Shown one piece after another: positions 35,216 through 42,610 of a stretch of 64,000 nucleotides of DNA. This DNA is from a virus, in the IMG/VR virus record IMGVR_UViG_3300031539_000009, positions 18,157 to 82,156 of that record, one strand, 5' to 3'. A program made the position numbers and the translations under genes. The notes beneath the pieces were generated by a model. It saw only the letters and a list, made by a program, of their open reading frames with translations, had not been told where the DNA came from and did no database searches. Positions within the stretch are counted from its first letter, which is position 1. Each line of letters opens with the position of its first letter.

Positions 35216-36034
35216 TCACTTCTTGTATATGTAAGTATTGATTTGACCGGCTCTCAATTCGTGGATTTGTGCCATCGCCGCTTTGGCAATAGAATCATCC
35301 TGGAACATGTAATAATCCGGCTCAATCTTTTTCCGCATCTTGCTGTGGGTGATCGGCAGAACTTTCACAGACACCCCCACACTTAATTCAGGGACATCCG
35401 GCTGAATTTTCCTGAGATTCACGCCCTTGATAGCGTTGCCATACATCTGGGCAGCCACAGACTCATATATGTCCCCCTCTTTTGCCAACTTGTAGATGGT
35501 GCTTGGCTCCGGTGTCGATGTATCCGTCACCTTCAGGCCATATGGTTCATACCTGATCAGCGTGATCTTAAACATACAACCACGCACTGTCCCGTCGTGC
35601 CGGAAGGAATCGAACACAATGCTGCCTATCTCGGACACAAAGCAGCGAATGACCATGAATCCCTGGCCCATGCTGAACTCGCATATCGGTGGCCGCTTCA
35701 AGTTGCGATCCCGCTTGGTCAGCTTGATTAGTGTCTTCAACTTTGGTGCCACTTGGTCCAGGAAATTTCTGGCATACAGCCGTCCCGTGAAGGACACCAC
35801 ATCAGATTCCCCGGACAGCCACTGGGCAATGGGATATTGCCGGCCCAAGGTCTGCGTCATAGCATAATTTCCACCGGCACTCATCTTCAGGCCAATTGGC
35901 TCAAATTGCGCTTCAAATTCGATGTCCAACTCAGGAGCACGGATTGACCACAAGACGTTGGGGCCAAACAACAGGCCCATCAATGTGGTCGGAAGATTCC
36001 CAATCGCACTGCCTATTCCTGCCAGGTCAACCAT
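35216..36034 (-). CDS. LysM-domain tail protein (XkdP-like)
   Basis: 272 residues. The C-terminal part includes YKLAKEGDIYESVAAQMYGN...LRKIQPDVPELSVGVSVKVLP, a LysM fold usually binding peptidoglycan or acting in tail assembly. Position between tape measure and hub is as in PBSX. The start shares one base with the tape measure stop (TAATG). Confidence 0.82.
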   Translation of the reverse strand: MVDLAGIGSAIGNLPTTLMGLLFGPNVLWSIRAPELDIEFEAQFEPIGLKMSAGGNYAMTQTLGRQYPIAQWLSGESDVVSFTGRLYARNFLDQVAPKLKTLIKLTKRDRNLKRPPICEFSMGQGFMVIRCFVSEIGSIVFDSFRHDGTVRGCMFKITLIRYEPYGLKVTDTSTPEPSTIYKLAKEGDIYESVAAQMYGNAIKGVNLRKIQPDVPELSVGVSVKVLPITHSKMRKKIEPDYYMFQDDSIAKAAMAQIHELRAGQINTYIYKK

Positions 36035-38784
36035 TACACTGCTCCCATTTGATTCATCGAACGCTTATGAACAGGTGTCATGGACCTTCCTGCCCTTTCA
36101 TTGTGCTCCACCTGGGCCTGGCCCACCGCAATTAGCAACTCACGCCCGTCCACATACAATTTTGAGTTGACAGTAATCGGACCGCCGCCCCCGGCTGATG
36201 GCGCTTGTTCTGCCATCCTGGCCCCGGCCCCGGACCCGTGAGCCGCAGACTGCCTTTCAATGCTTAGACCGCCAGCCCTGGCTGTGGCCGCCGTCATGTC
36301 AGGGAATTCACCTGATGGCGATGAGCTTGGGCTGCCAACCGTGGCTGATCCGGTGCCTGGACCTGCGCCCGGCCCGATTCCCACTTTGCCAAGTATGCTC
36401 AGCGCACCTTGGACAATTGAACTATCGGCCAACCTCTTGAACGCATTGATGGCACCGTCTATGGCTCTGTTGATCGGTCCTGTTATCTTGGCGACAATTC
36501 CGTTGAATACTGCCCCGACTGCGCTCACCGCAGAAGTGGCCGCCGATCTCAACTTGGACACAAGCCAATTGGCTGCTGATGTCACCGCCGCCACAATGAC
36601 ATCCTTGATCGCCGTGAAAGCTGTCGTGAACGCTGATATCAACCAAGACATCAATGCCATATTGGAAGATATCACAAATGAAGCCATCTTTTTGAATGTA
36701 TCAATTGGACTTAAAATTGCGCCGGCAACAGCCTTCATCACCGTCCACCACATCTCCAAATACCAGATGATGGCCTTCACCGCCGGTTCAAGCATGGTAA
36801 CCATGAATGCAGTCAAGAAAACAGCCGCATCTAGCACTGAAATCAAGGCCATTGCTGCAATTCCGACATACTCACCAAACGTCTGCCAGAATGATTGCTG
36901 CCCTGCCGTTTCAGCTGCCATCAGCCCGAACTCCTGAAGCACGCCCTTGACCGATTCCCAAAGCAGCTGTAACGACATCTTGAGGCTGTCAATGGCCGGG
37001 CTGATTCCGCCCCACATGGACATGAACCCCTGGGCAAACGCTTCCGCAGATTGCTTAATCCAGCCCCAGGCCCGGACCGCAAATTCAGCAAATGACTCAT
37101 TTTCCTTTTTGAAGGCAATCACCGCCGCTGCCGCCAAGCCAATCACGATGATGACCGGCCAAAAAGCTGCCGATGCGATGGTTGCTATGCCCGATATGAT
37201 GGCCCCCAATCCGCCCAGGCCCATCCCAAGCATAACTATTCCGCCCAACAGAGGCAACAAAGCTGCTGACGCTACTGCTACATATGTGGCCCACTTTGCG
37301 AACGTCTGGATGAAATTTCCTTCCATCCCGCCTAACCACTTTATGATTGGCGCAATGAACTCGTTTTTGATCCTGGATGCCACGGCAATTACATTGTCGA
37401 TTCCCTCTTTGATTCCGGTTGCCACGGCTTTGATTGGCCCCGGTATTTTTTCCCAGGCTTTCAACATGTCCTTGCTGACGTTCTTGCTATCCATATTCAG
37501 GAATTGAAGCGCCACAGCGATGTCGCCCACGAACGCTGTGATGCTCGTTGTCATAGATGTCATTCCCGGAACAAACCGGCCCGCTGTCTCCAGCGCAAAT
37601 CCTTCCATGGCTGAACCCAGCAACGTGAATGCGCCTTTCAGGGTGGACAATCTTCTTTGTGCCATTATCGCCGCCGCCCCGATCATTTCACCGTTTTCAT
37701 CCATCATCGCAGATGACTTCTGAAGTGATGACATCAACTCGTTGGTGGACCGCTTCCCGGCTGCATCCAGAGCAGTGTATGCTCCCTGGCCTCTGATTCC
37801 AAAAATTTCCTGAACCAAGGCTGCTTTTTCGGTGACTGATGTTAGGCTATTTAATTTCCCAGCAACTGAGTTGATAATATCAGGCAATGGTTTCAACTTT
37901 CCGTCCGCTGTTTCCATCACCTGGCTGAATCCCTTTTTTCCGCCAAACATCTTCAGGACCGCTTTTGACGGCTTGGACAATTTCAACATCATGTTTCGCA
38001 GCGATGTTCCGCCCATGCTGGCCTTCAAACCTGCGTTGGCAAGCATGCCCAGTGCTGCGGATGTTTCCTCAATGGATATTCCCATCTGCCTGGCAGTTGG
38101 CGCAACATATTTGAACGCTTCGCCTAACATTGACACATTGGTGTTAGATCGTGCCGATGTCAAGGCCAAGACATCCACTACATGGCCAGATGCCGCCATT
38201 GCCACCCCAGCAGCTTCCCAACTTTTGGCCAAATCAGACCCGGCTGGCGCCAACTCGCCTGTCAGACGGTTGGCAACATCGCTGGCCTTGATTCCCATCG
38301 ACTTCATGATGTTGGCAGTGATATCCGCCGCCTCAGCCAATCCCATGGAATCTGCTGCCGCCATATTCAAAACGGCTGGCAACGTGGAGATGATCTGCTC
38401 TGTGCTAAAACCGGCCCGCCCCAGGAACTCCATCGCCTCACCCGCTTGGGTGGCTGAGAACGCTGTGGTGGCACCTAGTCTTTTGGCAGTCATCTCCATC
38501 GCTGCCATATCATCCGCCGTCGCCAAAGTGACGGACCCCACATTTGCCATGGCTTGCTCAAAGTTCATCGCCTTGGACATCCCCCAAGCAAACCCGGCAG
38601 ACAGTGGGGCTGTGGCCATTGTCAACCTTCCGATTCCGTTGGTGATGGAAGACATGCCAGTGCGCATCTTGTTCATAGTTTGCCCCATGCTCTGGAACGC
38701 ACGATTCACCCGCCCGATTCCAGTGACAGCACGTGAGCCATCGAACATTAATTTGACGCCCAGCCCAACTTGATCCATCGCCAT
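36034..38784 (-). CDS. Tail tape measure protein
   Basis: 916 residues. TP901-type tape measure: VTGIGRVNRAFQSMGQTMNKM near the N-terminus, AATTAFSATQAGEAMEFLGRAG, then long helical and hydrophobic stretches (LLPLLGGIVMLGMGLGGLGAI) characteristic of tape measures. Its length sets tail length. Preceded by the tail chaperone pair, as expected. Confidence 0.92.
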   Translation of the reverse strand: MAMDQVGLGVKLMFDGSRAVTGIGRVNRAFQSMGQTMNKMRTGMSSITNGIGRLTMATAPLSAGFAWGMSKAMNFEQAMANVGSVTLATADDMAAMEMTAKRLGATTAFSATQAGEAMEFLGRAGFSTEQIISTLPAVLNMAAADSMGLAEAADITANIMKSMGIKASDVANRLTGELAPAGSDLAKSWEAAGVAMAASGHVVDVLALTSARSNTNVSMLGEAFKYVAPTARQMGISIEETSAALGMLANAGLKASMGGTSLRNMMLKLSKPSKAVLKMFGGKKGFSQVMETADGKLKPLPDIINSVAGKLNSLTSVTEKAALVQEIFGIRGQGAYTALDAAGKRSTNELMSSLQKSSAMMDENGEMIGAAAIMAQRRLSTLKGAFTLLGSAMEGFALETAGRFVPGMTSMTTSITAFVGDIAVALQFLNMDSKNVSKDMLKAWEKIPGPIKAVATGIKEGIDNVIAVASRIKNEFIAPIIKWLGGMEGNFIQTFAKWATYVAVASAALLPLLGGIVMLGMGLGGLGAIISGIATIASAAFWPVIIVIGLAAAAVIAFKKENESFAEFAVRAWGWIKQSAEAFAQGFMSMWGGISPAIDSLKMSLQLLWESVKGVLQEFGLMAAETAGQQSFWQTFGEYVGIAAMALISVLDAAVFLTAFMVTMLEPAVKAIIWYLEMWWTVMKAVAGAILSPIDTFKKMASFVISSNMALMSWLISAFTTAFTAIKDVIVAAVTSAANWLVSKLRSAATSAVSAVGAVFNGIVAKITGPINRAIDGAINAFKRLADSSIVQGALSILGKVGIGPGAGPGTGSATVGSPSSSPSGEFPDMTAATARAGGLSIERQSAAHGSGAGARMAEQAPSAGGGGPITVNSKLYVDGRELLIAVGQAQVEHNERAGRSMTPVHKRSMNQMGAV

Positions 38785-38790
38785 TTCAAC

Positions 38791-38994
38791 TTACCTCTTG
38801 CCCGTTTTTCCTGTCTTATCCTTTATGGCCTTCACTTCTCTATCCAGCTGCGTGTTGGTCCGTTCCAACATCCACAGCCGGTCCTTGACCGGAAGCACCA
38901 AAAGTGACTCCCAAGTCAGCCCCGGAACATGATACATTAGCAGAAAGCATTGTTCCAGAACCTGATGCCAGGGCTGAATTTCCATCAGGTTCAT
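38791..38994 (-). CDS. Second tail assembly chaperone segment (T-like), reached by -1 frameshift
   Basis: 67 codons, helical, no family. It lies just before the tape measure gene, the place of the T segment in G/GT chaperones. Its ATG overlaps the stop of the upstream gene (ATGA), but no ribosome site precedes it. The slippery site directly upstream puts ribosomes into this frame, giving a C-terminal extension of the 260-residue protein. Confidence 0.72.
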   Translation of the reverse strand: MNLMEIQPWHQVLEQCFLLMYHVPGLTWESLLVLPVKDRLWMLERTNTQLDREVKAIKDKTGKTGKR

Positions 38995-39003
38995 GAGAAA
39001 AAA
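38958..39003 (-). promoter_or_regulatory. Programmed -1 ribosomal frameshift signal
   Basis: Minus-strand heptamer T TTT TTC (39003-38997) in the frame of the upstream gene, two codons before its TGA. After a 4-base spacer comes a perfect 10-bp stem (GAACCTGATG at 38992-38983, CATCAGGTTC at 38967-38958) with a 15-base loop. -1 slippage enters the 67-codon frame. Confidence 0.82.
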
Positions 39004-39773
39004 CTATCATATTCCCACCTTAATATGGCCTGGAAGTTGACACCGCACCGCTCACACTTTCCCTCCACCGCCATAAGCGGACCAGCATTGTGCTCTTCAA
39101 CCTCTGCCATCAAAAAGTTGATGTCACGCTTGGTCATTCCTGCCAAGGAATCTTCTGTGAGCGCCAAAGGATTCTGGTCCAGCCCCTTAATGGCCATGAT
39201 GGCACTGATGAAATACTGCTCGGCCAGGTCGCCAGCATTCTTTGCGTCCTCAGCCTTGAGTGACTCGATGGCGGCCCACTTGGTCGGCTGGATGACCAGA
39301 TTTTTCCGAACCTTCCCGCTCAACTCAAATCCGTCCTGAAGCTTCACGTTGCGGGTCAATTCATCTTTTGACTCTTTGACCCGGACAGACAGCGTTTCAA
39401 GATCAGCCTTGAACTTGATGTTGTTCCGGCAACTGCCGCACACGATGGGCATTGACAGGTCTTTTCCCAACGCCACATATCGCAGGTAAATGTACATGTA
39501 CAGCACGTCGGACATCGCCATCTGGTTGATGGCGAGCAATCGGTGAGGCTCAGGTTTTTCCCCGAACTTTTCCCCGGCCAACACAGAAATCATGTTTGCC
39601 AAGATGATGGAAGTGAATTGGCCCTGGTTCAAGTCATCGGTCCGCTTTCCGCCAATGATTTTTTCCTGGGCCATCGTCCATGACTTGCAATCGAAGTCAC
39701 GGACAAGCTCATCGCCCTTGAGAATGCCGATGGGTAGCACCGGCCCTTGTTCTTTCAATGTAACCGTCTTCAT
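38991..39773 (-). CDS. Tail assembly chaperone (XkdN-like position) with split zinc motif
   Basis: 260 residues with GGAGGTGCTC before the ATG. Two cysteine pairs, CGSC at 112-115 and CERC at 240-243, could form one zinc site. The rest is helical with no enzyme motif. Position between tail tube and tape measure identifies it as the chaperone that folds the tape measure. Frameshifting would give a 327-residue product. Confidence 0.78.
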   Translation of the reverse strand: MKTVTLKEQGPVLPIGILKGDELVRDFDCKSWTMAQEKIIGGKRTDDLNQGQFTSIILANMISVLAGEKFGEKPEPHRLLAINQMAMSDVLYMYIYLRYVALGKDLSMPIVCGSCRNNIKFKADLETLSVRVKESKDELTRNVKLQDGFELSGKVRKNLVIQPTKWAAIESLKAEDAKNAGDLAEQYFISAIMAIKGLDQNPLALTEDSLAGMTKRDINFLMAEVEEHNAGPLMAVEGKCERCGVNFQAILRWEYDSFFS

Positions 39774-39836: not shown

Positions 39837-40274
39837 TTAGATCGGCAGCACGTCATCCGCTGAGAACGTCCACTCAACCTGAGCAGCCTCACCCTCATTC
39901 TCCATCGCCAAGTCAGGCAAAGCCCGCTTGGTTGGGAATACACCCGTCAAGGTGTATGATCTGAGAGTGCGACCGGTCAAGGACTTGTGGAGCAAAGTGC
40001 CGATTTTTTTGTACAATGGGCTGACAGGGTCTTGCGACTCCTGAAACCATATCTCCAAACCGGCTTGTTCGACCAGGTGGTGCATCATCGTTTTTGCGGT
40101 GAATTCCACAGGCTTGGTGTGCCCGCCTGGTGCTTTGGTGCGGTCAGGAAGGTCAACCACCTCCAACTCTTCTTCAATCCCGCTGATCTCAGTGAATCGG
40201 ATGGTTGGCATTCCAAGTATGATCAGCTCATACTTATTGACCGGCATGTGGTCTTGCTGGATTGTCCCTTTCAT
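39837..40274 (-). CDS. Tail tube protein
   Basis: 145 residues. KYELIILGMPTIRFTEISGIEEELEVVDLPDR...GHTKPVEFTAK, with SYTLTGVFPTKRALPDLAMENEGEAAQVEWTFSADD, matches the XkdM/P2 FII/T4 gp19-like tail tube fold. AAGGGGGG lies upstream. Follows the sheath gene by 14 bases. It forms the rigid inner tube. Confidence 0.88.
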   Translation of the reverse strand: MKGTIQQDHMPVNKYELIILGMPTIRFTEISGIEEELEVVDLPDRTKAPGGHTKPVEFTAKTMMHHLVEQAGLEIWFQESQDPVSPLYKKIGTLLHKSLTGRTLRSYTLTGVFPTKRALPDLAMENEGEAAQVEWTFSADDVLPI

Positions 40275-40288
40275 TTCTCATGCCCCCC

Positions 40289-42610
40289 TTATACCACAGC
40301 TTCAAAGATTCCGGCCTTGCTGACGGTAATGATGAACCGCTCAACAGTGTCGGCAAGCCTGAGTGTGATTTCGGCCAGAAGATCGCCCGCCGCTGCGGTG
40401 GCATCGGTGTTGATCTCGTCATCCAGCTTGATGTCGCATGCGTCCTGAAAGTTGTCCCCTCTGAGCGCACCCTTGGTCCACTCCGGCAGGTAAAATCCCC
40501 GCATGGCGGAAAGGGCTGTCTGCTGAATGTCTGAATTGTTGATGGCGTACACCACCCAATCGAATTCTTCACGCATGACATTCTCATAGTAGGACATCTG
40601 TTCACGCTGATGTTTCCACCGCCACGCCGGGTCAGCGGCAATGGTGCGGTCACCCCAGATGATACAGTTGCCCTCTTTGAACTTGATGATCTGGATTCCA
40701 TGCGGGTTGAGGAATTCCTCATCCAGTATCTTTTCCCCAGTGGGCAACTTCAAGACTTTGGGCAGATTGACATCCGTGCCCGCAGCCGCTTTGTGATAGC
40801 CATTCCAGTTTTTGGCCGTGAGTGCTTCCCTTCCGTGAATCGCCCCCGTCAACGGTATCAACTTGAGGCCAGCCGCTTCCGGGTTGTCAATGTAGCCATA
40901 GCTGGGGAATGCCGTCACGCCCATGTCGTTGCGTCCAATGGTGTCGTTGATGAATTCTTCAGCCGCAGACTCATCGATGATGGTTGGGTCAATTTCGACT
41001 CTGAACTGATAGTTTTTGGCGCTGGCATATTCCAGCCCCGCCTTTTGAACCGCTGCGGCATACACGCCAGGCACGGCCAACTTGACCAGCCCCTGGTTTT
41101 TGCCGAACAGGCTGTTGATCGGAGATGACTCAACATCGAACACATCGGTGTAATCCGTGTTGTCCACATTTGCCAGCCCGTCATAGCCTCCAGCCAATCC
41201 TTGGGGTTGTTCCACAATGAAAGGATCACCCGCCGTCGCATCCAGGGTCATGTCGTTGCCCGGTCCCACCGTGATGGTGTCGTGGGTGTTGGAGATGACC
41301 TTGAAAACGATTCTGCGCTTGGCAGTATTTGGGGTGAGGAATCCACCCGCCAATTCATCTGACTTGAACGGCTGGCAGTACACAGAGATGACATCAGCCA
41401 ACGCAAAGTTGTCGGTGCCGGCCGCAACCGTGAGGCTGGGCAACCAATCATATCCGGGCACATACGCAACGCCAGTAGTGGCATCGGGCAACGTCACGTT
41501 CAGCTGTCCCGGTCCGATTGGTGTTGCGACCACAGACCAGACTTCAGCCCCCGGAGTGGTGGCATCAGTGCAAGTCAATGTCAAGATGCACGGCTGGACA
41601 TCGGCTCCATACAGGAATGTTCCCGCATTGCCTTTGTCCGGTGTGGTCCCGTCAGACGGTCCCTTGGCGTGGATGATTTCAGACTTGAGCGTGGTCGCTG
41701 TAAGGCCCAAGGCAACGCTGACATTGTAAAAATTGGCCGGTCTGATCTCAGGCGACACAGCACCCGTCCAAAGATCGGTCACCACGATGTCGGAATTGCC
41801 TTGGTCATCGTTGATCACGTTCACAAAATAGTTGGATGCGGCCGGATCAGAGGACATATTGTCATAGGTCAGCCGCAATTCCCCGTCCACGTACACGTAC
41901 ATGCCCCACTCGGTGGTCGGATTGGAAATGCCATCCTTGATCAAAACCACGGTTTGCGTGGTGGCCAGATTGCTCAAGACCACTCTGATCTCAGTTGACG
42001 CCCCCGCTGCGGCCACATAGTCGGCCAGCATCGTGCTGTCATTGGACACGGTCAACGTGACCGACCCGGCCACCGTGGCCGTGTTGCCCACGATTTTGTA
42101 GGACTTCCCCGGAACATCGGCAATCTGAAGCACGCCGTCTTTGAGTTCATTCTCTTTGACGTCATCAGCTGCAATGTCCACGGTTGTTTCTGCCAGGTTG
42201 GAAAGGTCGCTCAACACCACCTGTTTCCTTCCGGCCCACCTTCCACCGTTGGCGGCCTCCACCTTCACCACTGGGGTGTAGGGATGCCGTCTGGCGGCCA
42301 AGATCAACTCGCCAGGCACTTCAGACCCGTCCGTGACCCTGACCATAAATAATGCCCCGGCCCCTTGCCCTGCGTCAAAAAAATCCTGAGCGCAATCGGG
42401 CAACAGGGATTCCGGTATCAAGCCCCCGGTCTTTTTTACCAGCGACTTTTTAGTTGGGCAGTATATCAACTCCCCAACGGCCCCTTTCTGCATGATTCCG
42501 GTGTAGCATGTCACGCCCAGAGCAGCCGGTTCAATCGGCTTTTCTGATGGACGCTCAATGACTGTGACACCGGCCCCAAGAGTAGGGCCAAACCGTCTCT
42601 GTTCAGCCAT
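40289..42610 (-). CDS. Tail sheath protein with large inserted domains
   Basis: 773 residues, much larger than P2/PBSX sheaths (about 400-470). The N-terminus AEQRRFGPTLGAGVTVIERP and the C-terminal ...GNCIIWGDRTIAADPAWRWKHQREQMSYYENVMREEFDWVVYAINN are sheath hallmarks. The excess lies in the middle, rich in Val/Thr/Asp, likely surface-exposed beta domains. Contracts around the tube in infection. AAGGGGGTTG precedes the ATG. Confidence 0.9.
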   Translation of the reverse strand: MAEQRRFGPTLGAGVTVIERPSEKPIEPAALGVTCYTGIMQKGAVGELIYCPTKKSLVKKTGGLIPESLLPDCAQDFFDAGQGAGALFMVRVTDGSEVPGELILAARRHPYTPVVKVEAANGGRWAGRKQVVLSDLSNLAETTVDIAADDVKENELKDGVLQIADVPGKSYKIVGNTATVAGSVTLTVSNDSTMLADYVAAAGASTEIRVVLSNLATTQTVVLIKDGISNPTTEWGMYVYVDGELRLTYDNMSSDPAASNYFVNVINDDQGNSDIVVTDLWTGAVSPEIRPANFYNVSVALGLTATTLKSEIIHAKGPSDGTTPDKGNAGTFLYGADVQPCILTLTCTDATTPGAEVWSVVATPIGPGQLNVTLPDATTGVAYVPGYDWLPSLTVAAGTDNFALADVISVYCQPFKSDELAGGFLTPNTAKRRIVFKVISNTHDTITVGPGNDMTLDATAGDPFIVEQPQGLAGGYDGLANVDNTDYTDVFDVESSPINSLFGKNQGLVKLAVPGVYAAAVQKAGLEYASAKNYQFRVEIDPTIIDESAAEEFINDTIGRNDMGVTAFPSYGYIDNPEAAGLKLIPLTGAIHGREALTAKNWNGYHKAAAGTDVNLPKVLKLPTGEKILDEEFLNPHGIQIIKFKEGNCIIWGDRTIAADPAWRWKHQREQMSYYENVMREEFDWVVYAINNSDIQQTALSAMRGFYLPEWTKGALRGDNFQDACDIKLDDEINTDATAAAGDLLAEITLRLADTVERFIITVSKAGIFEAVV

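Follow-up and report, generated by a model that had tools for sequence, protein, structure and literature searches.

A conserved slippery heptamer and a very probable -1 ribosomal frameshift at the tail-assembly chaperone gene of an uncultivated myophage lineage

The slip site of the lambda G/GT genes is GGGAAAG, and a downstream stimulatory structure is common, but not universal, in frameshifted tail-assembly chaperones (TACs) of the G/GT type. In this class, the two products are expected to appear at a fixed ratio during infection and to be absent from the virion. Such chaperones are textbook knowledge (Xu et al. 2004, as cited in PMC5009743), the G-T frameshift arrangement being conserved except in T4 according to a 2016 review (PMC5009743). 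Short and long chaperone genes of T4-like phages are the subject of Vladimirov, Gautam & Davidson (Virology 2022;566:9-15, as cited in PMC10885494 and PMC12846349), a work to which PMC12846349 also attributes poly-T shift signals in the TAC genes of that phage group. As conveyed by the citation in PMC10885494, the parallel with the two T4 genes coding for gp26 and gp51 is already published, and no novelty is claimed for it. In addition, a -1 shift has been predicted from conservation for the TAC of the Adele type (PMC12846349).

The record analyzed here, from an uncultivated virus, measures 82 kb and carries the junction on its minus strand, within the window (the whole 64-kb stretch of DNA under analysis). 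The tail gene cluster is read from right to left in the order sheath, tube, 260-aa ORF, 67-aa ORF and tape measure, followed by further tail and baseplate genes. The phage has a contractile tail and represents an uncultivated myophage lineage. The cluster comprises:

40289..42610, minus strand: tail sheath protein, 773 aa (phrog_23 tail sheath, E=7.9e-16)
39837..40274, minus strand: tail tube protein, 145 aa (T4 gp19 matched weakly, with E=5e-4 and below the cut-off; position; an ORF of ~145 aa conserved in relatives)
38991..39773, minus strand: predicted short tail-assembly chaperone TAC-N ('G-like'), 260 aa, two CxxC zinc motifs (ORF; PF12322; phrog_150)
38791..38997, minus strand: predicted C-terminal part of the long chaperone form, TAC-C ('T-like'), read in the -1 frame, with 68 codons from the shift onward and a TAA stop (alignment to 29 relatives; phrog_20255, phrog_634)
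36034..38784, minus strand: tape measure protein, 916 aa (PF10145, E=1.5e-45; phrog_1533 tape measure, E=1.7e-78)

The chaperone gene sits directly between the tail tube and tape measure genes, in the same order as in relatives, and the tape measure ATG at 38784 is placed 6 nt past the TAA stop of the -1 extension. The locus resembles lambda G/GT in the succession of major tail protein, TAC, -1 extension and tape measure, and in a -1 shift expected at low level, but differs in protein family, slip site and extension. It shares with the TAC of phage Adele (Vandenendeviridae/Andersonviridae) a poly-T slip site and a TAC-N/TAC-NC pair preceding the tape measure, whereas the Adele motif is GTTTTT instead of TTTTTTC and the phage families are others (PMC12846349). 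Judged by the observed sequence elements, their conservation, the codon selection at the heptamer, the conserved extension and the gene context, the locus very probably makes two chaperone forms by -1 programmed ribosomal frameshifting. The gene position, the in-frame heptamer, the conserved open -1 frame, the conserved signal and the downstream structure are those of G/GT-type genes, and the window is a newly found but ordinary case of this known class.

The 260-aa ORF (39773..38991) ends in GAT AGT TTT TTC TCA TGA, and the junction displays the following elements:

39004..39006, minus strand: -1-frame TAG immediately 5' of the heptamer; 5' of the shift point, the -1 frame has no more than 2 open codons
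38997..39003, minus strand: slippery heptamer T_TTT_TTC, zero frame AGT TTT TTC, kept in 30/30 loci of the comparative set
38991..38993, minus strand: zero-frame stop TGA, 3 nt past the heptamer and overlapped (ATGA) by the ATG with which the next ORF begins
38983..38992, minus strand: 5' arm of the stem, GAACCTGATG, beginning 4 nt past the heptamer (RNAfold -16.1 kcal/mol, z=-2.0)
38958..38967, minus strand: 3' arm of the stem, CATCAGGTTC, pairing with the 5' arm

As originally predicted, T TTT TTC stands in frame just before the stop of the 260-residue protein, at 39003..38997 and on the minus strand, the strand having been left unstated. The 4-base spacer and the perfect 10-bp stem proposed within 38958..39003 are likewise present, as TCAT followed by GAACCTGATG/CATCAGGTTC enclosing a loop of 15 nt (38968-38982). 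The ATGA overlap and the -1-frame TAG directly upstream of the heptamer had gone unmentioned. After this TAG (39006-39004), the next stop in the -1 frame is the TAA at 38793-38791, and the two open frames overlap only at 39003-38994, which confines a shift to -1 to the heptamer. Such a shift enters, as had been proposed, the 67-codon frame directly 5' of the tape measure gene, which counts 67 codons from its own ATG (38994..38791) and 68 from the shift; the expected fusion length of 327 residues also holds (259+68). The 260-aa ORF of the window contains one in-frame T6 heptamer only, and other in-frame T_TTT_TT sequences occur just twice in the 8,429 codon positions of the 30 related genes.

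In the proposed mechanism, most ribosomes would read AGT-TTT-TTC-TCA-TGA through to the stop and release the 260-residue short form. In a minority, stalled by the hairpin while U_UUU_UUC occupies the P site and the A site, the tRNA-Phe pair would re-pair one base back as UUU_UUU. The slipped ribosomes would then continue over CTC ATG AAC ... as far as the TAA at 38791, and their product would be a less abundant long form, the 327-residue fusion with an additional C-terminal domain of 68 residues. If lambda gpG/gpGT is taken as the model (PMC5009743), the short forms, being many, would coat the tape measure protein, and the long forms, being few, would recruit tail tube subunits. Slippage itself, its frequency and the roles of both products are what we infer.

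The search for related loci in IMG/VR, with the tail sheath protein (40289..42610) as the query, retrieved 40 loci, one identical to the window but ending before the junction and the others diverged, with no close relative of the window spanning the junction among them. After dropping near-duplicates, the comparative set comprised 30 non-redundant loci including the window, with TAC pairwise identities of 19-63% (median 30%). The relatives preserve the order of sheath, tube, an ORF of 259..335 aa, a short ORF and tape measure, many with additional small ORFs after the sheath. The in-frame T6 heptamer is present in 30/30 loci, as TTTTTTC in 28 and TTTTTTT in 2, always at the identical position in the protein, YDxFF. 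In each of the 30 loci the -1 frame also stays open past the heptamer, for 56-81 codons, and the end of this extension falls between -11 and +13 nt relative to the start of the tape measure gene. A second sampling relied on a pattern search with a subset of nine TACs, since the full 30-sequence alignment was too diverse; it disclosed 47 viral loci, partly contigs already in the set, with the heptamer in every copy that could be read properly (44). Two apparent heptamer losses, L063 and L064, were rejected, as the match begins at the wrong place on contigs already represented by L007 and L029, both of which have the heptamer. No relative was found by the nine-TAC pattern search of bacterial genomes, by direct queries of viral contigs with the window TAC or tape measure, or by a plasmid search. 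Loss of signal conservation in related phages had been named in advance as evidence against the shift; instead, heptamer, -1 phase and extension are kept in 30/30 loci, and the signal recurs in the second sampling and in the T4 superfamily. This conservation of signal, phase and extension in relatives supports the G/GT-like frameshift reading of the original prediction.

The choice of codons at the heptamer is equally constrained. The codon preceding TTT TTY ends in T in 30/30 loci, and the first Phe is always TTT; the T-ending codon is kept even though, in most of the genes, the residue is more often encoded by other codons. Calculated from each gene's own usage, the joint probability of this codon choice is ~10^-43, a figure inflated by ignoring the relatedness of the sequences, the divergence of which is high. 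Across the 30 loci, these patterns indicate selection on the codons of the heptamer beyond the requirement of the protein.

The downstream stem is also unlikely to be a chance feature. Perfect stems of at least 10 bp with a loop of 3-25 nt begin at three positions on the minus strand of the 64-kb window, two after merging, and the chance of such a stem beginning in a given 10-nt interval is ~3e-4. The minimum free energy of 57 nt, taken from 3 nt past the heptamer, was compared with that of dinucleotide shuffles in the 30 loci; the folding is stronger than that of the shuffles, with a mean z of -1.96 +/- 0.26, and peaks at the post-heptamer position, with mean z values of +0.04 to -0.72 in 12 neighbouring windows placed at 60-nt steps on either side. 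Many relatives share a CTTCCCG...CGGGAAG stem, whereas L009, L026, L033, L034, L036 and the window display stems of other sequence, that of the window being non-homologous to the common one. The hairpin is thus kept while its sequence varies between loci, supporting a stimulatory role. Spacers of about 3-9 nt are predicted for the relatives, and that of the window, at 4 nt, is close to the lower limit.

The alignment of the extensions begins at the slip-site Phe-Phe and continues through the core F.L.Y...G......M...ER.W.L.RL..Q.K.E. In three close relatives the changes fall mostly at third positions of the -1 frame (5/8, 7/12 and 8/12), the wrongly parsed pair L087/L088 being left out of this comparison. 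In 27/30 loci, none of codons 1-4 of the extension is ATG, GTG or TTG, the first possible start in many loci being placed 11-34 codons into the extension, within the conserved block. In those 27 loci, the lack of a start at the beginning of the extension leaves fusion as the sole route to its conserved N-terminal part. Concerning family relationships, the extension matches phrog_20255 (unknown function) in 20/30 members and phrog_634, 'baseplate hub assembly catalyst' (gp51), in 3/30 (best 1.2e-5); the hhalign comparison of the extension with the gp51 C-terminus is modest (probability 79%, E=1.6e-5 as a single comparison).

The first product had been described as a large zinc-motif protein, and the extension as short. 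Both properties are present, but neither is an oddity, since the protein is of the PF12322/gp26-like type and extensions of 56-81 residues are the rule. The 260-aa protein matches (i) PF12322 (T4_baseplate, gp26/gp51) marginally, with E=2.2e-5 and 24.7 bits against a cut-off of 24.5, and (ii) phrog_150, baseplate hub, with E=8.5e-6. The TACs of 26/30 aligned relatives match PF12322, with a best E of 6.5e-15, and that of one relative weakly matches Phage_TAC_7, a chaperone family of the gpE/gp41 type. Judged by these profile matches, the 'zinc protein' is a tail-assembly chaperone of the PF12322 (T4 gp26/gp51-like) family.

T4 and the window thus have in common the family PF12322 and phrog_150, represented in T4 by the short gp26 and the long gp51. 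T4 encodes them in two paralogous, divergently placed genes, whereas the window comprises one gene and a -1 shift. T4 gp26 ends at the slip position, and gp51 carries the extension. Accordingly placed alignments are seen with the fusion profile of the window family, which aligns full-length with T4-type gp51, including the last 50 residues, and ends at the slip-site Phe-Phe when compared with gp26, with modest probabilities of 91% and 83%, respectively. In cyanophages and other members of the T4 superfamily, a virus lineage other than that of the window, g26 displays the same in-frame heptamer at its end, the -1 frame being the gp51-type extension. In S-PM2, g26 and g51 are adjacent, with TTTTTTC 3 nt before the g26 stop and g51 in the -1 frame, and the same signal joins cyanophage g26-g51 in 80/80 IMG/VR contigs. 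T_TTT_TTC also stands at the end of g26 in S-CAM1, P-HM1, Acidovorax ACP17, Vibrio CZ01, Aeromonas P19 and Agrobacterium OLIVR6, with the variants TTTTTTT in pf16 and TTTTTTG in Rhizobium I1_9. A tblastn search with the window protein does not reach these g26-g51 pairs, the identity being too low.

Several junctions between gp26-like and gp51-like frames deviate in annotation or sequence. The 'gp51' of S-PM2 is annotated from an internal ATG within the shifted frame, and such cyanophage starts may be an annotation artefact; in S-CAM1 (L187 1714-1899), g51 is unannotated between g26 and the next gene, yet the -1 frame encodes it. In the Streptomyces phages GiJojo (L043 4762), LuckySocke (L044 3373), BRock (L045 3361) and pSt2308 (L046 3379), GAA CTC TGA/TAA is conserved at the end of the gp26-like ORF, which is continued directly in the +1 frame by the gp51-like extension, with residues conserved 5' of the annotated start. 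This junction is a candidate site for +1 (or -2) recoding within the gp26/gp51 pair. Stenotrophomonas phage IME-SM1 (L191 1715-1735) has five T against six in relatives, leaving the zero frame out of step; either a miscounted homopolymer or a genuine loss of one base seems likely. The gp51-like extension is in the -1 phase without a canonical heptamer in Vibrio phage K474 (L194; CTT TTT GCG TAA, with a stop/start overlap) and in Serratia phage Kevin (L196; GTT TTC ATC TAA). Finally, genes 51 and 26 of phage RB43 (L052 1501-2794) are collinear and overlapping, whereas they are divergent in T4.

The overlap of the -1 ORF's ATG with the TGA stop makes translational coupling a rival in the window phage. 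Among the rival readings, the least improbable combines both routes: the 327-aa fusion would arise by the -1 shift, re-initiation at the ATGA overlap would add a T-like protein of 67 aa in free form, and a single hairpin would tune the proportions of the three products. We consider such a dual-route junction possible but rather unlikely: all elements for each route are present at one junction, but the need for a free T-like protein is evident in no relative, inspection of the sequence reveals no Shine-Dalgarno-like sequence at normal distance before ATG 38994 that could serve the 67-aa ORF as a ribosome-binding site of its own, and the cyanophage 'gp51' starting within the shifted frame may reflect annotation. 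A far less probable reading assumes two separate proteins, with the 67-aa ORF re-initiated at the ATGA overlap and the T6 run incidental. The window alone would also fit it, and the relatives L022 and L031 likewise have a start at extension codons 1-2. On the other hand, the 27/30 loci without such a start have retained both the heptamer and the -1 phase, together with residues conserved 5' of the first possible start, the strong codon bias at the heptamer would not be expected, and the missing Shine-Dalgarno-like sequence argues against it in the window as well. Coupled re-initiation is therefore possible in the window phage but cannot explain the family of 30 loci.

Programmed ribosomal slippage is also to be distinguished from slippage of the transcribing polymerase on the T6 run, which would equally yield the second frame and to which the homopolymeric conserved core might point. 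This is very improbable, given exactly six T followed by C in 28/30 loci, the fixed codon phase and the downstream hairpin; transcriptional slippage normally requires longer runs. A sequencing or assembly error splitting a single true gene, conceivable for a window known from a single metagenomic record, can be practically dismissed, as 30 diverged assemblies, as well as isolates with complete genomes, show the same broken phase.

A -1 ribosomal frameshift at this junction would add an uncultivated myophage lineage to the phages making two tail-assembly chaperone forms by slippage. For genome annotation, the practical consequence is that gp51 may be annotated from an internal start, as in S-PM2, or missed, as in S-CAM1, in some genomes. 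The U_UUU_UUC sequence at one fixed protein position, Phe-Phe, is common to the window lineage and the cyanophages, a pattern that fits the view in which the separate gp26 and gp51 of T4 would have replaced an older slippage arrangement.
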